This document shows, piece by piece, positions 1,308-29,995 of a stretch of DNA of 64,000 nt. The notes beneath the pieces were generated by a model. It was not told the origin of the DNA. It worked only from the letters and a program-made list of their open reading frames with translations, and did no database searches. A program made the position numbers and the translations under genes. Source of the stretch: Gammaproteobacteria bacterium (GTDB taxonomy: Bacteria; Pseudomonadota; Gammaproteobacteria; Steroidobacterales; PWYM01); the NCBI GenBank assembly GCA_003567475.1, contig PWZL01000080.1, forward strand, positions 1 through 64,000. The letters are read 5' to 3'. Position 1 is the stretch's first letter. Each line of letters starts with the position of its first letter.

Positions 1308-2630
1308 TCAGCTGCGCGCGAGCTGGCGCTGGAGATCCTGCCGGCGCGACACCTCCCGCTCGATGAATTCGATCCACTGATTTGCCGTACGGCGGCTCCG
1401 ATCATCAGCGCGAGCAGCCCGAAACGCCGTCTTGGCAGGCTCGTATTGCTGCAGTTCGTACAGGCACATCCCGAGCACCACATTCGCGGTGTCGGTTCGC
1501 CGCAGTCCGCCGCGGCTGAGTCCAGCGCGGGCGGCCTCGACGCATTCCTGATGCTGATCGAGATTCAGGAAGGACTGCGCGAGCTGCAGATACAGCTGGC
1601 CATCCCCCGAGCGGCGCGCGGCCTCCTGCAGTGGCGGGATTGCGCGGCGATCGTCCTGCGCCATCATCCATGCCTGCGACAGCAGCCGGTAGTTGCGTTC
1701 ATTACGCTCGACAATACCTTCAGACATGCCCCGGTCGAGAATCCTGGCGCCCTTGTAGGGTCCACCGGACTGCATGTAGAGCTGAGCGAGCTGAACGATC
1801 TCATTTTCGCGATCCATGAGCCCGTCTTCGTAAATGGCCTCCAGCACGGCCACCTGGCGCCGCTGCAACCCAAGCTCGCCGTACACGGCTGACAGATGAG
1901 TCCAGTATTCCTTTTTCGGCCAACGGGTCACCAGCAACTCGAGCACTTCTCTGAGGCGGGCGGTATCCTCGAGCTGGAAATAGCCCGCACGGAGCAGGCC
2001 ATACCACTCCTCGCGTGCGCCGCCGTCCCGATCCCGTTCCGCGATCTCGATCGCGCGGTTCAGATACTCCACCGACTGCCGGTACTGCTCAAGCTGATAA
2101 TGCGCGACGGCAAGCAGGTAGAAAGGATCCCCTCCCGGGTTCTCGGCAGAGGCCAACCAACGGTTGCCGTACTCCAGCGCCTTCTGGTACTGCTCGGTTG
2201 CCATTGCCAGCTGCACCAGCGTCCACAGGGTGTCGTTCATGAACCCCTGCGGCAGATCCGGAAGCGCCACCACCTCTTCAAAGGCCCGCACCGCCGCCGT
2301 CAGATTCTCCTGCTGGTAATCGATCAAACCGGTGAAATAGAGGATCTGCCCTCGCTCGTAGCTGTTGAGATCCTGAATGGTCCTGATGCGGTCGAGCTCG
2401 CGGCGCGCCCCGGCATAGTCGTCCTCTTCAAGGCGCTCCTGGGCCGCAGACAGCCCCTGAAACACGCGTTCCCGCAGGGCCTGGACCTGCCGCGTTTCCT
2501 CCTCCTGAGCCACCGCACTGGTCACCGGCGAGAACTCGCCCGGTCCGGCAACGAACCACATCGCGAGGGCTGCAGCCGCCGCGGCGGCTACCGGTCCCCG
2601 GCGGGTCCGGGGGGTTGCTGAAGTCTCCAT
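1308..2630 (-). CDS. TPR-repeat protein of a TonB2-type system
   Basis: A 440-residue protein with an N-terminal hydrophobic segment (about residues 10-30, Ala-rich, then an AVAQ-like cleavage region), so probably exported to or anchored facing the periplasm. It is followed by many degenerate tetratricopeptide helices over most of its length (for example YLLAVAHYQLEQYRQSVEYLNRA in two halves). The start at 2630 has a strong GAGGAGG Shine-Dalgarno eight bases upstream. An alternative ATG at 2660 overlaps the tonB stop as TGATG and would add ten residues. It is last in a six-gene operon. In Vibrio-type TonB2 clusters a TPR protein occupies this position; its exact role is unknown, probably a scaffold for the Ton complex or its receptors. 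Confidence 0.8.
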   Translation of the reverse strand: METSATPRTRRGPVAAAAAAALAMWFVAGPGEFSPVTSAVAQEEETRQVQALRERVFQGLSAAQERLEEDDYAGARRELDRIRTIQDLNSYERGQILYFTGLIDYQQENLTAAVRAFEEVVALPDLPQGFMNDTLWTLVQLAMATEQYQKALEYGNRWLASAENPGGDPFYLLAVAHYQLEQYRQSVEYLNRAIEIAERDRDGGAREEWYGLLRAGYFQLEDTARLREVLELLVTRWPKKEYWTHLSAVYGELGLQRRQVAVLEAIYEDGLMDRENEIVQLAQLYMQSGGPYKGARILDRGMSEGIVERNERNYRLLSQAWMMAQDDRRAIPPLQEAARRSGDGQLYLQLAQSFLNLDQHQECVEAARAGLSRGGLRRTDTANVVLGMCLYELQQYEPAKTAFRAARADDRSRRTANQWIEFIEREVSRRQDLQRQLARS

Positions 2631-2659
2631 TTCTGCCGCCTCCTCTCGCACCACTGCCA

Positions 2660-3259
2660 TCAATCCTCCAGCCGGAAGGTGATACGGAATCTGACCCCAG
2701 GGACGTCAACGGGTTCACCGTCGATCACTCTCGGGCGGTAGCGAAACCGCATCACGGCATCGATGGCTGCACTGTCAAAGATGGAATTTGAGGATTCCAC
2801 CACAAAGGGATCGCGCACTGTACCCTGCCGCGTCACCGTGAACTCGAGCGTCACCCAGCCCTCAAGGCCACGCATCTGCGCCCGACGGGGGTAATTAGGC
2901 GCGACCTGCACGATCGGCATGTACTCGCCATCACTGAAAAAGCCATCTCGACCGATGTCCATGTCGTGGGAAACGGAAGGCGCCGTGACACCAATGCCCG
3001 CGCCGGCCGCCATATCCATGTCATCCATCTGCCGATCCGGCTGATCCGGGGGCGGCGCATCCGGCTCGGGCGGCCGCTCTGGCCGGTCCTCGCGCGTTTC
3101 GGTCTGCTCTTCGCGCTGGACACGCACGAAGTCGACAAACCTGAACGTGCGCTCGTCGGTCAGCGCAGGGACACCCATGACGATCAGGTACTGCATCACC
3201 CACAGCAGCGTAAAGGTGACGAACGTACCCACCACCACGGAGATCAGGATCCTCACCAT
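2660..3259 (-). CDS. tonB: energy transducer TonB
   Basis: A 199-residue periplasm-spanning protein. Residues 4-30 form a single inner-membrane anchor, about 55-80 are rich in Pro, Glu and Asp (PPEPDAPPPDQPD), and the C-terminal 85 residues match the TonB C-terminal domain (YPRRAQMRGLEGWVTLEFTV, then AIDAVMRFRYRP). It passes proton-motive energy from ExbB/ExbD to outer-membrane receptors. The short linker resembles TonB2-class proteins rather than the long Pro/Lys linker of E. coli TonB. A GGAGG box lies eight bases before the ATG. The gene follows exbD by 79 bp and is translationally coupled to the TPR gene. Confidence 0.93.
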   Translation of the reverse strand: MVRILISVVVGTFVTFTLLWVMQYLIVMGVPALTDERTFRFVDFVRVQREEQTETREDRPERPPEPDAPPPDQPDRQMDDMDMAAGAGIGVTAPSVSHDMDIGRDGFFSDGEYMPIVQVAPNYPRRAQMRGLEGWVTLEFTVTRQGTVRDPFVVESSNSIFDSAAIDAVMRFRYRPRVIDGEPVDVPGVRFRITFRLED

Positions 3260-3338
3260 GTTTCAATCCTCCTGCACGATACCCGCCAAGCGACTGGCGA
3301 ATGGCTCATCGACCCTGCCATTCTGCCCACGGCAACCA

Positions 3339-3749
3339 TCAGGTCTCCTGCGCCGCGATGGACACATTGAAGACACCTGCCTGGCGGGCCGCGTCCATCA
3401 CCTGGATGAGGGTCTCGGTCACCGCCTTCTTGTCCGCCTGAATCACCACCGAACCCTCGGGGTTCTCGGCGTGCAGCCGCTCGATGTTGGCCCGCAGCGC
3501 GCGGGGATCCACCTGACGACGGTCGATCCAGATCTCGTTGTTCTCGGAGATCGCAATCAAGATGTTGGCCCGCTCCTGCCGCACAGCCGTCTGTGCATCA
3601 GGACGGTTCACATCAATACCGGCTTCCTTGACGAACGACGCCGTCACGATGAAGAAGATCAGCATGATGAACACCACGTCGAGCATCGGCGTGATGTTGA
3701 TTTCGTTCTCTTCCTCTTCGCTCGCAGCTCCAGCGAAATTCCTGCGCAT
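3339..3749 (-). CDS. exbD: biopolymer transport protein ExbD
   Basis: A 136-residue ExbD/TolR protein: a short acidic cytoplasmic N-terminus, one transmembrane helix at about residues 22-41 and a periplasmic domain. Asp24 in the motif NITPMLDVVFIML is the protonatable residue conserved in the family and essential for coupling to proton flow. It partners the two ExbB-type proteins encoded just upstream, 11 bp away. Together they energise TonB. Confidence 0.94.
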   Translation of the reverse strand: MRRNFAGAASEEEENEINITPMLDVVFIMLIFFIVTASFVKEAGIDVNRPDAQTAVRQERANILIAISENNEIWIDRRQVDPRALRANIERLHAENPEGSVVIQADKKAVTETLIQVMDAARQAGVFNVSIAAQET

Positions 3750-3760
3750 GGCTTGATCCC

Positions 3761-4288
3761 TCAGTGATCCATCGTGAGCTCGTCTTCGAGCAGTTCAACT
3801 TCACGGTTGGCGCGGTTGGTCAGAATGGTGGCGAACAGCACCCCTGAGAGCGCGCCCACCATGCCTGCCATCGTGGGGATCGTGGCTTTCGACACCCCTG
3901 AGGCCATGGCACGCGCGTTGCCCGTGCCGGTGACCGCCATCACGTCGAAGACCTCGACCATCCCGGTGACCGTGCCCAACAGGCCCAGTAGCGGACATAG
4001 TGCCACGAGGGTCTTGATCATCGGCAGGCCGGCATTCGCCGACAGCCTGACCTCTGACACCAGCGCCTGGCGAATGTTGGCGGCTTCCCAGGATTTGCGT
4101 TCAGGACGCGCCTCCCACCGGCGGAACACCTCGCGGCTCTGCTTCTTCAGTGCTGTGTTGAAGTAGATGAACCGCTCAAGGATCAGCACCCACATGAAGA
4201 AGATGGTCCACCCGATTATGACCAGTACGTCCCCTCCAAGTTCAAGGAAGTCGCGTATCGGTTCCCACATATCAATCAGCAGTTGCAT
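3761..4288 (-). CDS. exbB: biopolymer transport protein ExbB (short form)
   Basis: A 175-residue MotA/TolQ/ExbB proton channel subunit. It has three hydrophobic segments: about residues 20-40, then the family core LCPLLGLLGTVTGMVEVF near 95-115, and a third near 135-160. It forms the membrane stator with ExbD. This is the second ExbB-type gene in the operon; the longer one directly upstream is a TtpC-like protein. Such a pair, followed by exbD and tonB, is the arrangement of the Vibrio TonB2 system. Confidence 0.93.
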   Translation of the reverse strand: MQLLIDMWEPIRDFLELGGDVLVIIGWTIFFMWVLILERFIYFNTALKKQSREVFRRWEARPERKSWEAANIRQALVSEVRLSANAGLPMIKTLVALCPLLGLLGTVTGMVEVFDVMAVTGTGNARAMASGVSKATIPTMAGMVGALSGVLFATILTNRANREVELLEDELTMDH

Positions 4289-4330
4289 GGACTACCTCTC
4301 GCGTCGCGTCGGCAAAGGGTGACGACGGCC

Positions 4331-5719
4331 TCAGGCCGTCGCCCCCTTCTTCTCTGCTTCCGAGTGCTGGGCCACGATGCCGGCGCTCTGCTCATTGAGA
4401 ATGTGCAGGATGCGCTTGCTGCGACCACTGACGATGGTGTGCAGCAGCACGATCGGAATGGCAACCACCAGTCCGAGCACCGTCGTCACCAGGGCCTGCG
4501 AGATACCGCCCGCCATCAGCGTGGGGTCACCGGTACCGAACAGCGTGATGGCCTGGAAGGTCTGGATCATACCCGTCACCGTACCGAGCAGACCCATCAA
4601 CGGTGCCACCACCGAAATGATCTTCAGGAACAGCAGGAAGCGCTGCAGACGCGGCGTCTCCTTGATGATCGCCTCACCCAGCTTGAGTTCGAGCGTCTCG
4701 GTGTCGACCCCCTTGTTGGCGTGGTAGACCTTCAGCACACGACCCAGCGGATTGTCTTCCCGGGCTTCACTGGATTTCAGCTGACGGCTCACCTTGCTGC
4801 TCGTCATCCCCAGAGTCACCAGACGTTCAGCGGCCAGCAACAGACCGAGGAGACCGAGCGCGATGATGACGTAACCCACCTCGGCGCCCTGCTGAATGCG
4901 TTCCACCATCGAAGGATACTCGATGAGCAGCGCCAGCAGCTGACCACGCGTCGGGTCGAGGGCGAACGGCGTAAAACCATCACTGGCGTTGACCAGCCGC
5001 GAGGTGCTGGTGATGAACCGTCGCTGATCGGGCTGGCGCGCGATTTCACTGACGGTCCCGGTGGCCGGTTGGTAGGCGAGATAGGCGCCATCGGAGATCA
5101 GGTTGAACGCACCAACACGCACCACGTTGCGAGTCTCGCGATCCCCGTCGGCCGACACCACCTCCATCGGCATCCGGGCCACGCGTCCAAGCTCGGTGGC
5201 TTCACGCTGCAGCTCGAACCAGAGGCGTTCGATCTCCTCGACCGATGCGATCCGCGCCGTCTGTCCCATGCGCTCGGCAAGCCGCAGCAGGAACTCGCGA
5301 CGATCAGGGTACTGAATTGCGGTCAGTGAGTTGTCGAACTGACTGGCCGCGTCGCCGGCCACCAGCTGAACCACGCCGAACAACTCGCGCAACTCGCCAA
5401 GGCTCTCATTGAGCTCGGCGTTGAGCCGCGCGAGTTCCCGCTCGTTCTCACCGAAAGTACCTTCCAGCGTCTCGCTGCGGCGCTCTTCACGGGTCTGGCG
5501 CTGCCGGGCTTCGCGCAGCAGGCGCTCCTGCTCGCCCCGCTGCGCCTCGAACTCACGCTCCCGCTGCCGGGCTTCTTCGGAATCCCGGGCGCGACCCTGC
5601 TCCACCAGCCGGAGGAGCTCTTCCAGGCTGCGGGCCTGAGCATTGGCATCGGCAGGCGCAAGCGTACCGAGCCCGAACATGACGGCGACTACCGCCGTCA
5701 GCAAGAATTTGACTCTCAT
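4331..5719 (-). CDS. TtpC-like long ExbB (MotA/TolQ/ExbB domain with periplasmic coiled coil)
   Basis: A 462-residue protein in three parts: a signal sequence (cleavage expected after Ala27), a highly charged Glu/Arg coiled coil from about 30 to 115 with a further extracytoplasmic region to about 270, and a C-terminal ExbB domain from about 275 to 440 ending with the motif VVAPLMGLLGTVTGMIQTF. This matches TtpC, the extra component required by Vibrio TonB2 systems. The long N-terminal arm is presumed to reach into the periplasm. It follows the DUF3450 gene by two bases and precedes the short exbB by 42 bp. Confidence 0.88.
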   Translation of the reverse strand: MRVKFLLTAVVAVMFGLGTLAPADANAQARSLEELLRLVEQGRARDSEEARQREREFEAQRGEQERLLREARQRQTREERRSETLEGTFGENERELARLNAELNESLGELRELFGVVQLVAGDAASQFDNSLTAIQYPDRREFLLRLAERMGQTARIASVEEIERLWFELQREATELGRVARMPMEVVSADGDRETRNVVRVGAFNLISDGAYLAYQPATGTVSEIARQPDQRRFITSTSRLVNASDGFTPFALDPTRGQLLALLIEYPSMVERIQQGAEVGYVIIALGLLGLLLAAERLVTLGMTSSKVSRQLKSSEAREDNPLGRVLKVYHANKGVDTETLELKLGEAIIKETPRLQRFLLFLKIISVVAPLMGLLGTVTGMIQTFQAITLFGTGDPTLMAGGISQALVTTVLGLVVAIPIVLLHTIVSGRSKRILHILNEQSAGIVAQHSEAEKKGATA

Positions 5720-22836: not shown

Positions 22837-22884
22837 GCCGAGGACACCCGGCCAGCGGGCCTTGTGCAGTGCGGCAAAATGTAT

Positions 22885-22902
22885 TAATGTGCTAGTACAT
22901 TA
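22885..22902 (+). promoter_or_regulatory. CTAG-centred palindrome, candidate operator of the TrpR-family regulator
   Basis: TAATGTGCTAGTACATTA is an 18-bp palindrome with eight of nine symmetric pairs, centred on CTAG, the core of TrpR half-sites. It ends 16 bp before the start codon of the TrpR-family gene and overlaps the likely -10 region (TATTAA, 22882-22887), as expected for an autoregulated his-operon repressor site. It is one of the few AT-rich patches nearby. Confidence 0.7.
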
Positions 22903-22918
22903 CTACGACAGTCGCCCA

Positions 22919-23248
22919 ATGAAAGATCGCCGCTCGACCACGCCTGAACAGGACGCCGCCGCCGAACAGGCGCTGTATGCTGCCATCCTGTCATTGCGTG
23001 ACGCCGAAGAATGCCGCCGTTTCTTCAGAGACCTGCTGACCCCGGCAGAGCTGCAGGCCATGGCCGACCGCTGGTCGGTCGTGCCTCTGCTGGCTGCCGG
23101 CCTGTCTTACCGGCGGATCAGCGAGATCACCGGCGTCAGCCTCACCACCATCGGCCGCATCGCCAGATTCCTCGCCGACGGCCATGGGGGTTATGCCCTC
23201 GCCCTGTCCAGAACGCCTGCGCCCCCCAAGGAAGACCCCGCACCATGA
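22919..23248 (+). CDS. TrpR-family (YerC/YecD-like) transcriptional regulator heading the his operon
   Basis: A 109-residue all-helical DNA-binding protein of the Trp repressor superfamily. The region FFRDLLTPAELQAMADRW followed by SYRRISEITGVSLTTIGRIARFL (about residues 35-90) carries the helix-turn-helix. Its stop overlaps the hisG start (ATGA), so it is cotranslated with the his genes. TrpR-family proteins in this position have been proposed as histidine-responsive repressors from comparative genomics. The palindrome just upstream is the likely operator. The effector has not been shown here. Confidence 0.85.
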   Translation: MKDRRSTTPEQDAAAEQALYAAILSLRDAEECRRFFRDLLTPAELQAMADRWSVVPLLAAGLSYRRISEITGVSLTTIGRIARFLADGHGGYALALSRTPAPPKEDPAP

Positions 23249-24150
23249 GCCCCCAGAACCCCGACCGTATCAAGATCGCCGTACAGAAGTCCGGGCGCCT
23301 CACCGAGCACTCGCTGGAGCTCCTGTCGCGCTGCGGCCTGAAGTACAGCAAAGGCCGCGATCAGCTGATCTGCTATGGCGAGAACCTGCCGATCGACGTG
23401 CTGCTGGTCAGGGATGACGACATTCCGGACCTGGTGCGAGAAGACGTGTGTGATCTCGGGATCGTCGGCGCCAACGTCCTTGAAGAGAAACGCCTGGCGT
23501 TTGCCGCGGCCGGTGACGAGGCGCCCTTCACCGTCGTTCGGAAACTCGACTTCGGGCATTGCCGGCTGTCATTTGCAGTGCCCGAAGAGGCGACCTGGAC
23601 CGGCCCGGAGGATCTCGAGGGCAGCCGCATTGCGACCAGTTATCCGCACATCGTCGGCGATTTCCTGCGTCGCCAGGGCATCACGGCCAGCGTCGTGGAA
23701 TTTTCCGGTGCGGTGGAGATCGCACCTAAACTCGGCCGTGCCGAGGTGATCTGTGACCTGGTGTCCACGGGCGGCACGCTGCGAGCCAATCACCTGCGCG
23801 AGGTGGACACCATTCTCGAGAGTGTCTCGTCATTGATCCAGACGCCCAAGGCGGTCCCTGCTGGCAAGGCCGAATGGATGGAACGACTCAAGAAGCGTAT
23901 CGATGGCGTCATTCAGGTCAGCGAAAGCAAGTACATCATGTTGCATGCCCCACGCTCGGCCCTGGCCGAGATCACGCGGCTGCTGCCGGGCTCGGAAGCG
24001 CCTACCGTCATGCCGCTCGAGGGCCGCGAAGACAAAGTGGCGATCCATGCCGTCTGCCGGGAGAATGTGTTCTGGGAAACGCTGGAAGAACTCAAGCAGG
24101 CAGGTGCAAGCTCGATGCTCGTCCTGCCCGTCGAGAAGATGTTGTACTGA
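23245..24150 (+). CDS. hisG: ATP phosphoribosyltransferase, long form
   Basis: A 301-residue first enzyme of histidine synthesis, joining ATP and PRPP. The catalytic domain (IKIAVQKSGRLTEHSLELL at the start; the PRPP-loop region EVICDLVSTGGTLRANHL near 170) is followed by a C-terminal domain from about 220 that binds histidine in the long-form family. It therefore needs no HisZ partner. It overlaps the TrpR-family gene by four bases. Confidence 0.96.
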   Translation: MSPQNPDRIKIAVQKSGRLTEHSLELLSRCGLKYSKGRDQLICYGENLPIDVLLVRDDDIPDLVREDVCDLGIVGANVLEEKRLAFAAAGDEAPFTVVRKLDFGHCRLSFAVPEEATWTGPEDLEGSRIATSYPHIVGDFLRRQGITASVVEFSGAVEIAPKLGRAEVICDLVSTGGTLRANHLREVDTILESVSSLIQTPKAVPAGKAEWMERLKKRIDGVIQVSESKYIMLHAPRSALAEITRLLPGSEAPTVMPLEGREDKVAIHAVCRENVFWETLEELKQAGASSMLVLPVEKMLY

Positions 24151-24157
24151 GGTCACG

Positions 24158-25471
24158 ATGAAGATTACCCACTGGAAACACCTGTCGGAGCGCGCACGAG
24201 ATGCCCTGCTCGAGCGCCCCACAAACCGGATCTCCGGCGAACTGCGCAGTCAGGTCGACGACATCATCGCGCGGGTCCGCGAGCACGGCGATGCAGCGCT
24301 GCGTGAGTTCACCGCGCGATTCGACCACGTTGAACTCGACGCGCTGAAGGTCGACGACGCCGAACTCGCCGCTGCAGAGTCAAAGCTGCCGACAGACGCC
24401 CTGGCGGCCATCGACCGCGCGATCGACAACGTGCGTACGTTCCACGCCGCCCAGCGCCCGGCCGAGATCGATCTCGAAACCTCGCCAGGCGTGCGTTGCC
24501 AGCGCCTCAACCGTGCGCTGGCCGCAGTGGGTCTGTATGTACCCGCCGGCAGTGCTCCCTTGCCCTCCACGGCCATCATGCTGGCCGTGCCCGCGGCCTT
24601 GGCCGGCTGCCCGACGCGTGTGATCTGCACCCCGCCGGATCGCCACGGGCGCGCCGATACCGCGGTGCTGGCCGTTGCCCGTCGCTGCGGCATTGACCAG
24701 GTCTTCAAGGTCGGCGGTGCCCAGGCGATTGCCGCGATGGCCTTTGGTACCGAAACAGTGCCCAAAGTCGACAAGATTTTCGGCCCCGGGAATGCCTGGG
24801 TGACGGCTGCCAAGACTGCGGTCGCCGAGGATCCGCGCGGCGCCGCGCTGGATATGCCGGCCGGACCTTCCGAAGTGCTGGTCATTGCCGACGAAACCGC
24901 AGACCCGGTGTTCGTGGCCTCCGACCTGCTGTCGCAGGCGGAGCACGGTCCGGACTCTCAGGTGATCCTGCTGGCCACCCGCGAGTCGATCGCCGAGCGC
25001 GTCGCCGGCGAGGTGAGGCGACAGCTCGAACAGCTGGACCGCCGCGAGACCGCCGGCAAGGCCCTCGAAAACAGCGCCCTGATCGTCGTCGATTCGGTTG
25101 CCCAGGCGATCGCCGTGAGCAACCGCTATGCGCCTGAGCACCTGATCATCCAGGTCGATCAGCCGCGACGCTGGCTTGACGCCATCAGCCACGCCGGCTC
25201 GGTGTTCCTCGGTCCGTGGACGCCCGAGTCCATTGGCGACTACTGCAGCGGCACCAACCACGTCCTCCCCACCTACGGCTTCGCGCGCACCTATAGCGGC
25301 CTGTCACTGACCGCCTTCCTGCGCCAGATGACGGTCCAGGAGCTGACGCCTGAAGGCCTGGCGGATATCGGCCCGGTCGGTCGCCGGCTCGCCGAGCTGG
25401 AGGGTCTCCACGCCCATGGTGAAGCCATCAGCCTGCGGCTGGCGGCCCTGCGCAGACGGACGGTGGCATGA
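24158..25471 (+). CDS. hisD: histidinol dehydrogenase
   Basis: A 437-residue zinc enzyme oxidising L-histidinol to histidine in two NAD-dependent steps. Characteristic stretches are GLYVPAGSAPLPSTAIML near 128, KIFGPGNAWVTAAK near 205, the DMPAGPSEVLVIAD loop near 230, and SVFLGPWTPESIGDYCSGTNHVLP in two halves near 350. It starts eight bases after hisG and overlaps hisC by four bases. Confidence 0.96.
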   Translation: MKITHWKHLSERARDALLERPTNRISGELRSQVDDIIARVREHGDAALREFTARFDHVELDALKVDDAELAAAESKLPTDALAAIDRAIDNVRTFHAAQRPAEIDLETSPGVRCQRLNRALAAVGLYVPAGSAPLPSTAIMLAVPAALAGCPTRVICTPPDRHGRADTAVLAVARRCGIDQVFKVGGAQAIAAMAFGTETVPKVDKIFGPGNAWVTAAKTAVAEDPRGAALDMPAGPSEVLVIADETADPVFVASDLLSQAEHGPDSQVILLATRESIAERVAGEVRRQLEQLDRRETAGKALENSALIVVDSVAQAIAVSNRYAPEHLIIQVDQPRRWLDAISHAGSVFLGPWTPESIGDYCSGTNHVLPTYGFARTYSGLSLTAFLRQMTVQELTPEGLADIGPVGRRLAELEGLHAHGEAISLRLAALRRRTVA

Positions 25472-26553
25472 CGACCGATTTCCTGGCCCTTGCGCGCCCT
25501 GAACTGCGGACGCTGGAGGCCTATCGGCCCGCCGGCTACGAGCCTGACTGCATTCGTCTCAACGCCAACGAGGCCCCCTGGCGCGCCCCGAATGACGACT
25601 CGGAGCGCGGCCTCAACATCTATCCGCCCCCTCGCCCCTGGGCGCTGACCGAGCGGCTTGCAAGCCACTACGGCGTCACCCCTGACAGCCTGCTCGTGAC
25701 CCGCGGCAGCAGCGAGGCCATCGATCTGCTGGTGCGCGGGTTCTGTGTCCCGGGCCAGGACGACATCCTGATCTGTCCACCCACTTTCGGGATGTATCAG
25801 GTCTATGCCGCCATCCAGGGCGCCGCCGTGCGCCGCGTGCCGCTGCAACGCGACCAGGGCTTCGCCCTCGATGCCAGCGGGGTGATTGCCGCGCTGGCCG
25901 CCGCCGCCGTCAAACTTGTGTTCCTGTGCTCGCCGAACAATCCCACTGGCAGCCTGCTCGAGCGCCAGGCCATCGAGCGCGTCTGCGAAGCGATGACCGG
26001 TCGGGGCCTGATCGTGCTGGACGAGGCTTACGTGGATTTTGTCGATGACGGGGGACTGCTCGAGCTGCGCGGCCACTATCCACATCTGGTGATCCTGCGC
26101 ACCCTGAGCAAGGCGCACGGACTGGCCGGCGCGCGCTGCGGCAGCCTGATCGCAGAACCTGTCGTGGTCGAGCTGCTCACGCGCATGCTGCCGCCCTACG
26201 GGCTGCCAACACCGACGCTTGAAGCCGCGCTGGCCAGCCTTGAAGGTGACACCGTGGCGTTGATGCGGGAACGCATCGAGGGCCTGCGGCAAGAGCGCAC
26301 CCGCGTCGCAACCGCCCTGAGTGGCCATCCACAGGTGATCCGGGTGCATCCTTCGGAAGCGAATTTCCTGCTCATCGAGACCCGCACACCAGGGCCACTG
26401 GTGGCTGCCGCACGCGCCCATGGGATCTTGATCCGCGACTTCTCCGCAGACCCTGATCTGCCAGCAGGGAGTCTGCGCATCAGTATCGGCACGCCGGAGC
26501 AGAACGACCGCCTGCTTGCGGCCCTGGCCACGGAGCGCCGAGCTCATGGCTGA
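25468..26553 (+). CDS. hisC: histidinol-phosphate aminotransferase
   Basis: A 361-residue fold-type I PLP aminotransferase converting imidazole-acetol phosphate to histidinol phosphate. It has the substrate-side NANEAPW near residue 33, LCSPNNPTG near 153-161, and Lys215 in LRTLSKAHGLAGARCG as the Schiff-base lysine. It overlaps hisD by four bases and hisB by eight. Confidence 0.95.
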   Translation: MTTDFLALARPELRTLEAYRPAGYEPDCIRLNANEAPWRAPNDDSERGLNIYPPPRPWALTERLASHYGVTPDSLLVTRGSSEAIDLLVRGFCVPGQDDILICPPTFGMYQVYAAIQGAAVRRVPLQRDQGFALDASGVIAALAAAAVKLVFLCSPNNPTGSLLERQAIERVCEAMTGRGLIVLDEAYVDFVDDGGLLELRGHYPHLVILRTLSKAHGLAGARCGSLIAEPVVVELLTRMLPPYGLPTPTLEAALASLEGDTVALMRERIEGLRQERTRVATALSGHPQVIRVHPSEANFLLIETRTPGPLVAAARAHGILIRDFSADPDLPAGSLRISIGTPEQNDRLLAALATERRAHG

Positions 26554-27544
26554 GCCACGCCAGGTCTGGGTACAGCGGGACGGCACGCTGTTGCGCACCC
26601 AAAGCCCCCCACTGGATCTCAGCGCCCTGTTGCCGCAACCCGGCGCCCTGCCCGCGCTGCTCAGCCTGCGGGCGGCGGGCTACCAGCCGGTCGTCTTTGG
26701 CGGTGGCGAGGCCCTGCCGCCCGCGGTCAGCGCGTGGTTCGGCGAATGGCTGGCGGCACATGGCCTCGAGGATGTTGCGCTGATCGATGGCGCCGACACG
26801 CCCGCCATGCTGTTGATGGGCGCGGTCGCCCGAGCGCGATTCGACCGGGACTACTCGGTTGTGCTCGCCGACGACCGGCTGGCCGATGTGGCACAGACCC
26901 TGGGCCTGAACCGGCTGGGCATCGACGCCAGCCGGCCCTGGTCACGGCTCGTCCGCGACCTCACAGGCCAGGCGCGGCGCGCCCGCGTGACACGCCGCAC
27001 CCGCGAAACCGCCATCGAGGTCGAGGTCGACCTTGATGCCGAAGGGCCTCAGATAATTTCAACAGGCATAGGGTTTTATGATCATATGCTCGAGCAAATT
27101 GCCAAGCATGGTGGCTTCGCGCTCAACCTCAGCTGCCAGGGCGATCTGCACATTGACGAGCACCATACGGTGGAAGACTGTGCACTCGCGCTGGGCAGTG
27201 CCCTGGACCGCGCGCTCGGTGAGCGCCGCGGGATAGGCCGCTACGGTTTCCTGCTCCCGATGGACGAGACCCGCGCCGAGATTGCCATCGATCTCGGTGG
27301 GCGACCCTACGCGGTCTTCGAAGGGGTTTTTCCCCGTGACGAAGTCGGCGGGCTGTCGACCGAGATGGTGCCGCATTTTTTCCGTTCTCTGGCCGAGACG
27401 CTGCGCGCGGCCATCCATGTCCGCGTCTCGGGCGAGAACACGCACCATATGGTCGAGGCGTCCTTCAAGGGTGTCGGCCGCGCGCTGCGCCAGGCGTTCA
27501 CCCGCTCCGGTAGCGAGCTGCCGAGTACCAAGGGGGTACTCTGA
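26546..27544 (+). CDS. hisB: imidazoleglycerol-phosphate dehydratase with degenerate N-terminal HAD domain
   Basis: A 332-residue protein with the two-domain plan of E. coli bifunctional HisB. The C-terminal dehydratase (about 143-332) is intact: GIGFYDHMLEQI at 174-185, the metal-binding DEHHTVED at 204-211, and FFRSL, HHMVEASFK and STKGVL near the end. The N-terminal phosphatase domain is not. Its DxDGT motif reads VQRDGT, with the nucleophile Asp replaced by Gln10. The TNQDG motif has become FGGGEA, the Cys/His zinc loop is absent, and the acidic loop is altered. It probably no longer dephosphorylates histidinol phosphate. The frame is continuous, so the domain is kept as structure. It overlaps hisC by eight bases and hisH by one (TGATG). 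Confidence 0.93.
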   Translation: MAEPRQVWVQRDGTLLRTQSPPLDLSALLPQPGALPALLSLRAAGYQPVVFGGGEALPPAVSAWFGEWLAAHGLEDVALIDGADTPAMLLMGAVARARFDRDYSVVLADDRLADVAQTLGLNRLGIDASRPWSRLVRDLTGQARRARVTRRTRETAIEVEVDLDAEGPQIISTGIGFYDHMLEQIAKHGGFALNLSCQGDLHIDEHHTVEDCALALGSALDRALGERRGIGRYGFLLPMDETRAEIAIDLGGRPYAVFEGVFPRDEVGGLSTEMVPHFFRSLAETLRAAIHVRVSGENTHHMVEASFKGVGRALRQAFTRSGSELPSTKGVL

Positions 27545-28143
27545 TGGCTTCGGGTCCTGTGGCACTGGTGGATGCCGGCGGCGCCAATATCGCCTCGCTG
27601 AAGTTCGCCCTGGCCCGGCTGGGGCGCGAGAGCCTGTTTACCCGGGACGAGACCATCATCCGAGGGGCCACCCATGTCATCATCCCGGGGGTCGGCGCGG
27701 CGGCCGACGCGATGGCCCGGCTGGAAGCCACCGGGCTGGACCGACTCATCCCGACCCTGCGCCAACCGGTCCTGGGCATCTGCCTGGGCATGCAGCTGCT
27801 GTTCGAGGGCTCCGACGAAGACCATGCGCGCTGCCTTGGCCTCCTGTCCGGCCAGGCCCGGCGGTTCATTCCCGCCCCTGGACGGCCCGTCCCGCAGATG
27901 GGCTGGAACGCCCTGCACCCGCGTGAACCCCATCCGCTGCTCGCAGGGGTTGGCGACCAGGCCTACGTCTACTTCGTACACAGCTACGCGCTGCCCGTGT
28001 GTGCGCACACGCTCGCCTGCGCCGACTACGGCGGAGAATTCGCCGCTCTCGTGGCCCGCGAAAACTTTCATGGCGCTCAGTTCCACCCGGAACGCTCCGG
28101 GCCAGTCGGCGAACGCATACTCAAAAATTTTCTGGATTTATAA
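27544..28143 (+). CDS. hisH: imidazole glycerol phosphate synthase, glutamine amidotransferase subunit
   Basis: A 199-residue class I glutaminase that feeds ammonia to HisF. The nucleophile is Cys80 in LGICLGMQLLFEGS, with the His-x-Glu pair in FHGAQFHPERSG near 180. VDAGGANIASLKFAL opens the protein as in the family. It is translationally coupled to hisB and ends four bases before hisA. Confidence 0.95.
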   Translation: MASGPVALVDAGGANIASLKFALARLGRESLFTRDETIIRGATHVIIPGVGAAADAMARLEATGLDRLIPTLRQPVLGICLGMQLLFEGSDEDHARCLGLLSGQARRFIPAPGRPVPQMGWNALHPREPHPLLAGVGDQAYVYFVHSYALPVCAHTLACADYGGEFAALVARENFHGAQFHPERSGPVGERILKNFLDL

Positions 28144-28147
28144 CTAG

Positions 28148-28924
28148 ATGGAACTCATACCTGCAATCGATCTGAGTGACGGGCACTGCGTCAGACTCTA
28201 CCAGGGGCGCTTTGACAAAGTGACCCATTACCCGGTCGCGCCTGCCGAGCTCGCGGGCCGCTACCGGGACGCAGGCGCCCGCTGGCTGCACGTGGTCGAC
28301 CTTGACGGGGCGCGGCGCGGCACGCCGGCCAATACCGCGACCATCGCGGCCATCCTGGCAGCCAGTGACATCCGTGTGCAGGTCGGCGGCGGATTACGCG
28401 ACCTGGCGGCCGTGGAAGCGCAGCTCGCCGCCGGTGCCGAGCGGGTGGTGATCGGCAGCCTCGCCGTGCGTGAGCCCGCAACAGTCACCACGTGGCTGCA
28501 GCAGCTGGGCCCGGAGCGTATCGTCTTGGCGCTGGATGTGCGCCTGGCCGAAGGCGTACCCATGACGCTCACCCATGGCTGGACGGAGGCCTCCGCCTCG
28601 ACCCTGTGGGAGGTCATCGAGGGCTTCCTGCCCCATGGCCTGCGGCATGTCCTGTGCACTGATGTCGAACTCGACGGCGCCATGCAGGGACCGAACCTGA
28701 CCCTGTACCGGGAGTGCTGCAACAGGTATCCGACACTTGCGGTCCAGGCTTCGGGGGGCGTACGCGACGCCGCCGACCTGGCGGCGCTGGCCGGCACCGG
28801 TGCGGCCGGGGCGATTTCCGGGCGGGCGCTGCTGGAGGGGACGCTGCCCCTCGACGGCCTGGAGGCCTTTTTGCCCGATCATGGCTTGGCCCCGCTGCCC
28901 GCCAGCGGCGACTCTGCATGCTGA
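28148..28924 (+). CDS. hisA: ProFAR isomerase
   Basis: A 258-residue TIM barrel that opens the ribose ring of ProFAR to give [21 protein letters not shown] carries the first catalytic Asp at residue 8, LHVVDLDGA and VQVGGGLR follow, and [15 protein letters not shown] carries the second catalytic Asp near 175. Sister fold of HisF; its last seven bases overlap the hisF start. Confidence 0.95.
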
Positions 28925-29706
28925 CCCGTCGCATCATTCCCTGCCTGGATGTGCGGGAAGGCCGGGTCGTCAAGGGCGTACAGTTTCGTAATCACGAGGA
29001 TGTCGGTGGCATCCTGGAACTTGCGCGGCGCTACCGCGAACGCGGCGCCGACGAGCTGGTGTTCTACGACATCACCGCAAGCCCTGAGGGTCGTCAGGTC
29101 GATCGCAGCTGGGTCAACCGTGTGGCCGAGGTGCTCGACCTCCCCTTCTGCGTCGCCGGCGGCATTCGCTCGGTCGCCGACGCCGAGGAAGTGCTCAACC
29201 TGGGCGCCGACAAGATTTCCATCAACTCCCCGGCCTTGGCCGATCCGGGTCTGATCGACCGGCTGTCGCGTCGTTTCGGCGCGCAGTGTGTGGTGATCGG
29301 TATCGACAGCCTGGCCATGGACGACGACTGGCAGGTCTATCAGTACACCGGCGACCCTGATCGTACACAGGCCGCGCGACGACGCACACTCGACTGGGTG
29401 CGGGAGGTCCAGGACCGGGGTGCCGGAGAGATCGTGCTGAACTGCATGAACTCCGATGGTGTGCGGCAAGGCTACGATATCGACCAGCTCGTGCGCGTGC
29501 GCGAGTGCTGCACTGTACCGCTGATCGCCTCGGGCGGTGCGGGCACCGAGCGCCACTTCCTCGACGTCTTCGAACAGGCGGATGTCGACGGCGCGCTGGC
29601 GGCCAGTGTGTTTCACAAGGGCCTGATCGATATTCTGGCACTGAAACGCTGGCTCGCCGAACGTGGTGTGGCCATCCGCCTGCTGGAGGACCCTGCTGAT
29701 GGCTGA
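28918..29706 (+). CDS. hisF: imidazole glycerol phosphate synthase, cyclase subunit
   Basis: A 262-residue TIM barrel that uses ammonia from HisH to make imidazole-glycerol phosphate and AICAR. It has catalytic Asp11 in [18 protein letters not shown] and the second catalytic Asp in [13 protein letters not shown] near 181. Phosphate-binding glycines occur at [11 protein letters not shown] and [11 protein letters not shown]. It overlaps hisE by eight bases. Confidence 0.96.
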
Positions 29707-29995
29707 TGATCACGCCTTCCTTGCGGAGCTGGAAGCCCTGCTCGACCAGCGCCTGCGTGATCGCCCGGAGGGCAGCTATGTCACCCGCCTGACCGACCGG
29801 GGGGCGCGCCGTGTGGCGCAGAAAGTCGGTGAGGAAGGCCTCGAATGCGCGCTGGCCGTGGCGACCGGCGATCGCGAGGAGGCCCGCGAGGAGGCCGCCG
29901 ATCTCCTGTTCCACCTCATGCTCGCCCTGCGCCAGGTGGACCTGCGGCTGGCGGATATCGTCGCGGTGCTGGCGCAGCGGCATCGGGATCGCTGA
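29699..29995 (+). CDS. hisE: phosphoribosyl-ATP pyrophosphatase
   Basis: A 98-residue all-alpha MazG-like pyrophosphohydrolase. The conserved metal and substrate motif is spread over [22 protein letters not shown] and the acidic stretch [16 protein letters not shown]. Only the HisE activity is encoded: no PR-AMP cyclohydrolase (HisI) domain is fused to it or encoded elsewhere in the operon. Last his gene. Confidence 0.94.

Follow-up and report, generated by a model that had tools for sequence, protein, structure and literature searches.

In a member of the Steroidobacterales and throughout its genus, the N-terminal half of the fused histidine-biosynthesis protein HisB would be a catalytically dead phosphatase of the HAD type, retained in folded form on the dehydratase to which it is joined, while a separately acquired, inositol-monophosphatase (IMPase)-type enzyme, here termed a-type HisN, would dephosphorylate histidinol phosphate in its place. 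We consider this whole account probable, at roughly 0.85.

The fused hisB gene and its degenerate N-terminal domain

The window, a stretch of 64,000 nucleotides, carries a histidine operon in the order yerC/yecD-like - hisG - hisD - hisC - hisB - hisH - hisA - hisF - hisE, with the following features.

22862..23248, + strand: YerC/YecD family TrpR-related protein, upstream of hisG (TIGR02531)
23269..24150, + strand: hisG, start approximate (TIGR00070)
24254..25471, + strand: hisD, span of the family-model match, the true start lying slightly upstream (TIGR00069)
25468..26553, + strand: hisC, aminotransferase class I/II, 8-base overlap with hisB
26546..27544, + strand: hisB, fused putative pseudo-HAD phosphatase and imidazoleglycerol-phosphate dehydratase, 332 aa (frame, PF00475 and TIGR01261 searches)
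26546..26971, + strand: degenerate HAD histidinol-phosphatase domain of HisB, residues 1-142, predicted fold intact (motif alignments, AlphaFold2)
26570..26584, + strand: VQRDG, residues 9-13, substituting for xDRDG, the nucleophile motif, and unchanged across five congeners (alignment)
26699..26713, + strand: GGGEA, residues 52-56, in place of TNQDG, HAD motif II (alignment)
26777..26797, + strand: approximate deletion site of the Cys/His zinc loop and the RKP lysine, about residues 78-84 (alignment)
26867..26887, + strand: ADDRLAD, residues 108-114, altered acidic loop (GDRxxD / GDxxxD, HAD motif IV) (alignment)
26972..27541, + strand: canonical imidazoleglycerol-phosphate dehydratase domain, residues 143-332 (PF00475, 201.7 bits)
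27544..28143, + strand: hisH (TIGR01855)
28148..28924, + strand: hisA (TIGR00007)
28918..29706, + strand: hisF (TIGR00735)
29699..29995, + strand: hisE alone, without the hisI half (TIGR03188)

The hisB frame runs unbroken on the + strand from an ATG at 26546, its first 8 bases shared with the end of hisC, to a stop codon at 27542-27544, with a coding-type GC3 of 0.84 within the N-domain; PF00475 matches the C-terminal half over its full length (model positions 1-144 of 144, 201.7 bits, above cut-off). The original prediction of an intact frame and a canonical dehydratase domain thus stands. At the end of the operon, hisE (29699-29995) corresponds to no more than the C-terminal half of HisIE, no hisI turned up in a simple motif search of the 64-kb window, and the spacing at the lone hisE is the same in several relatives.

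HAD chemistry requires, across the superfamily, a nucleophilic Asp, a motif II Thr/Ser, a motif III Lys and an acidic loop. We compared the window HisB at these positions with its E. coli counterpart and with about 145 HisBs from Gammaproteobacteria; PDB alignments confirm the relationship to the E. coli protein independently. The nucleophile (D8 in E. coli) is Q10 in the window protein and in all five congeneric genomes, and the second Asp of the DxD pair is kept (D10 in E. coli, D12 here). The motif II Thr/Ser (T/S-N-Q) is absent, residues 52-54 reading GGG, and the Cys/His zinc loop has been deleted together with the motif III Lys (RKP) near residue 81. TIGR01261 gives the HAD half 11.8 bits, the cut-off being 140, and finds zero candidates in the host genome (G000), and Pfam does not recognise this half either; phmmer links the N-terminal half to E. 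coli HisB-N (2fpr, E 3e-4). Taken together, these changes lead us to infer that the N-terminal half is a catalytically dead histidinol-phosphate phosphatase of the HAD type. The original prediction had listed the exchange of Asp for Gln10, the loss of TNQDG and of the zinc loop, and the changed acidic loop; all are seen in the alignment, but loss of the zinc loop is not diagnostic on its own and was rejected as a sign of a dead domain, as it also occurs in otherwise intact proteins. The zinc-loop Cys ligands are likewise missing from at least 17 HisBs whose catalytic set is complete. In L025, L029, L049, L053, L046, L023, L034, L082, L059, L032, L077, L071, L079 and L105 these ligands are missing and every catalytic HAD residue is kept, several such proteins coming from Wenzhouxiangella, and the zinc site of the domain seems dispensable.

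VQRDG replaces (F/L)xDRDG in all five genomes of the host's genus (G000-G004), where the rest of the active site is gone as well, and the HAD domain scores above the TIGR01261 cut-off (191-221 bits) in 13 of 15 outgroup genomes from the same order, the other two having no detectable hisB. On the simplest reading of this alignment, by which the original prediction had proposed to date the event, catalysis would have been lost in the stem of the genus, before its species split.

Prediction of the N-domain with AlphaFold2 recovered the HAD fold with 36 homologues (pLDDT 93) and also from the five degenerate sequences only (pLDDT 86, pTM 0.81), and the top PDB matches of both models were E. coli HisB-N (2fpr/2fps), answering a question of fold that the original prediction had raised. 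Pairwise dN/dS values (NG86) within the genus range from 0.27 to 0.58 in the N-domain, against 0.04-0.17 in the C-domain; the N-to-C ratio is 3.4-8.4 and its bootstrap intervals exceed 1. The same ratio comes to 2.3-5.7 for pairs involving G294, a genome discussed below, and to 1.1-1.4 where both relatives of a pair have intact domains. For the N-domain, the three closest congeners give values of 0.27-0.37 (95% intervals between 0.16 and 0.55). Selection is thus relaxed on the N-terminal half alone, yet not absent, as would be expected where catalysis is lost and the fold, as modelled, is kept. The motifs are lost genus-wide while the frame, the predicted fold and the dehydratase half are preserved, in agreement with the proposal of a pseudo-enzyme retained within its fusion.

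A candidate replacement phosphatase and its distribution in the order

Four IMPase-family genes occur in the host genome (SuhB-like, CysQ-like, b-type HisN-like and a-type HisN), the last two as follows.

Contig C4, 1287-2042: a-type HisN (IMPase-type, TIGR02067), 276.5-277.1 bits against a cut-off of 275.15
Contig C70, 49390-50124: b-type HisN-like gene (L137), motif 5 RGYGDFLHY, 238-239 bits, below the TIGR02067 cut-off

Motif 5 has been described as decisive for histidinol-phosphatase activity (PMC5516325), and by the criteria of that study the a-type protein has the expected Arg, Gly, Asp191 and aromatic residues in its motif 5, RFGGDCYSY; it also carries the IMPase motif WLIDPIDGT. The HisN proteins of Dietzia (RFGGDCYAY) and Zymomonas (LLGGDCYNY) have been confirmed by complementation (PMC5516325). 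All five congeners encode the a-type gene, with a motif 5 of R(F/Y)GGDCYSY and scores of 272.7-291.5 bits against the cut-off of 275.15, G002 falling just below it at 272.7. The best solved relatives are 5eq7 (Medicago) and 4n81 (Zymomonas). The former we take to be the plant histidinol-phosphate phosphatase of Medicago, and the latter we assume to be the HisN structure that PMC5516325 discusses. In two congeners the a-type gene is not near the his genes, and it adjoins an acyl-CoA-ligase-like/GNAT gene (ATP-grasp_5, Succ_CoA_lig, acetyltransferase), at 2089-4836 (-) for L132 and 1996-4722 (+) for L135. Two other kinds of phosphatase were considered as replacements and rejected: no PHP-type HisJ was found in the 20 genomes searched, and no PA0335-like HAD-IB protein (TIGR01490) in any of the five congeners. 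Of the two kinds of phosphatase for which the original prediction had suggested a search, a HisN/IMPase type is therefore present, on C4, and a PHP type was not found.

Across 296 genomes of the host's order, a-type HisN is present in 24, a HAD N-domain above cut-off in 241 and the dehydratase (IGPD) domain in 251. Ten genomes have an IGPD domain and no such HAD domain: the five congeners, G048, G082, and the contig-end cases G122, G159 and G191. With G278, these last three appeared as non-carriers of a-type HisN in which the HAD domain was weak or absent, and were rejected as such, their HisBs being cut by contig ends; G012, G019 and G242, without detectable hisB, are uninformative for the contrast between carriage and decay. 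Several order genomes estimated as 94-96% complete, G012, G019 and G025 among them, have no detectable IGPD domain, and possibly represent histidine auxotrophs; G012 and G019 do carry b-type HisN-like genes.

Direct inspection of the catalytic residues covered 20 carriers of a-type HisN and 119 non-carriers. A dead or deleted HAD domain was found in 10 of the 20 inspected carriers (the five congeners, G082, G063, G107, G294 and G048) and in none of the 119 inspected non-carriers. The Fisher p value for this link is about 3e-10, as computed with 121 non-carriers and over genomes that are related and not independent; on the IGPD tree the dead state needs five changes, and a phylogeny-corrected pairwise sign test has low power, with only two supported independent pairs. 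The remaining ten inspected carriers (G022, G035, G045, G057, G232, G222, G169, G200, G230 and G280) have intact domains, so possession of a-type HisN does not by itself bring about decay.

The affected domains form a graded series. In G107 (L224, C68) the sole catalytic change is D10G, at the second Asp of DxD (DRGG), which suggests an inactivation that is possibly very recent; this is a draft genome, 82% complete. Several substitutions are found in G294 (V8, K to E, D129A), whose congeners G230 and G280 are intact, and in G063 (GxEG, R129), and decay is heavy in G082 (GxEG, TNR, SC). The domain is remodelled, with a loop deletion, in the host's genus, and is deleted altogether in G048. In this last genome, complete at 3,467,246 bases, the hisC frame (L221, C1:1690500-1692600, -) is open into the IGPD domain, giving a 593-aa open frame, an arrangement that suggests either a HisC-dehydratase fusion or translational coupling via an in-frame GTG.

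In the HisN tree, the a-type proteins of the genus group with those of family f5 (SH-aLRT 90), amid proteins mostly from other classes, and of 110 strong a-type matches sampled across the phylum, 104 lie in other classes. The tree topology suggests several separate entries of a-type HisN into the order. With a HisN above cut-off in the same genome, and with dead domains confined, among the genomes inspected, to a-type carriers, the step of dephosphorylation has apparently passed to the separately encoded a-type enzyme, in keeping with the earlier expectation that it must be done elsewhere.

Proposed history and alternative readings

The ancestor of the genus would have acquired a-type HisN, as suggested by the patchy occurrence of this gene among genomes of the order and by how common it is in other classes. 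The presence of two enzymes for one step would then have made the HAD active site redundant and relaxed selection on it, consistent with the dN/dS raised in this domain only, and the catalytic residues would have been lost before the genus radiated, VQRDG being common to all its members. The domain would have escaped deletion due to its in-frame fusion to an essential enzyme, whose folding or packing probably requires it, a reason for retention that is suggested by dN/dS values below 1, the lack of frameshifts in five lineages and the preserved predicted fold. The direction of transfer, the activity of HisN and the inactivity of the HAD domain are each deduced here.

An artefact of assembly or sequencing is virtually excluded as a source of these changes: the host assembly, a draft, is split into 102 contigs, but identical substitutions occur in five separately assembled congeners, which refute this explanation, and the frame is open with a GC3 of 0.84. 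The genus-wide VQRDG argues equally against sequencing error and against chance, and disposes of the proviso in the original prediction that an error might hide an Asp at codon 10. It is also highly improbable that an altered mechanism still lets the HAD domain dephosphorylate histidinol phosphate: D12 and the predicted fold remain, but Q10, G52, the missing Lys and the modified loop strike every catalytic element that the chemistry needs. Somewhat less remote, though still improbable, is the assignment of the step to another phosphatase, most likely the b-type protein on C70, with a-type HisN acting on a different substrate. The b-type gene is encoded in the genome, has the motif 5 RGYGDFLHY and resembles M. 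tuberculosis HisN (5yht, E 7e-40), but it falls below the TIGR02067 cut-off. It is widespread in the order, and in the host it could act in this step alongside a-type HisN. Its motif 5 is RGYGDF[YL]HY across the orthologues L140-L151, many of whose host genomes also have an intact HAD phosphatase, and at least 7 genomes of the order carry the b-type gene with an intact HAD domain and without a-type HisN; the b-type gene therefore does not track decay, which follows the a-type only.

The least remote of the alternatives, while still unlikely, is that the dead domain has been selected for a new task, Q10 and the conserved core holding a ligand-binding or packing function on which the dehydratase now depends, such that the remaining pocket binds a ligand (e.g. 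histidinol, histidinol phosphate or histidine) and regulates or stabilises its partner. If true, catalytic decay would have left, in place of a bifunctional enzyme, a monofunctional one that is regulated or scaffolded. An N-domain dN/dS well below 1, a retained predicted fold, and the invariance of V-Q-R-D-G and of core positions in lineages with only 34-37% N-domain identity to the window protein all fit such a role; however, the dN/dS raised over that of the other half, the loop deletion and the variation among congeners elsewhere in the pocket (GGGE / GDPE / KPGD) resemble relaxation rather than the emergence of a conserved site, and G048 does without the whole domain at no evident penalty. 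We thus favor the reading in which an inert, folded HAD domain persists beside a-type HisN.

Relation to known systems

The bifunctional HisB fusion was already known (PMC1963479), and the window protein resembles the E. coli enzyme, His(NB) (2fpr/2fps), in its his-operon position, order of fusion, predicted HAD fold and canonical dehydratase half; it differs in having neither nucleophile, motif II, Lys nor zinc loop, and in falling below TIGR01261 (11.8 against 140 bits). Genomes annotated as encoding a "bifunctional HisB" can hence be without the phosphatase. The a-type protein is like the IMPase-type HisN (TIGR02067) of C. glutamicum, Zymomonas, Dietzia and plants (PMC5516325) in scoring above cut-off and in its RFGGDCYSY and WLIDPIDGT motifs; in the host it lies outside the his operon, and its likeness to HisN enzymes is one of sequence. 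In the openly available literature that was searched, we found no description of a degenerate HAD domain inside HisB, and a graded series of decay within one order appears to be new.

The case itself is one of non-orthologous gene displacement and not a new kind of system. Its value lies in a single order in which, after the takeover by an unrelated enzyme, the states of the same HisB domain run from intact, through inactivation by a single substitution, decay and remodelling, to outright deletion. The role of HisN where a bifunctional HisB co-occurs has been called "less evident" (PMC5516325), and becomes testable here: a-type HisN is tied to HAD decay and the b-type is not, which predicts different results in complementation. 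In the Sinobacteraceae, Thiotrichaceae and Ectothiorhodospiraceae, HisN is present and no bifunctional HAD HisB was detected (PMC5516325); such HisN-only gammaproteobacterial families would be the end point of the same displacement, from which the host's order differs in showing the intermediates of decay inside a HisB that is still fused.
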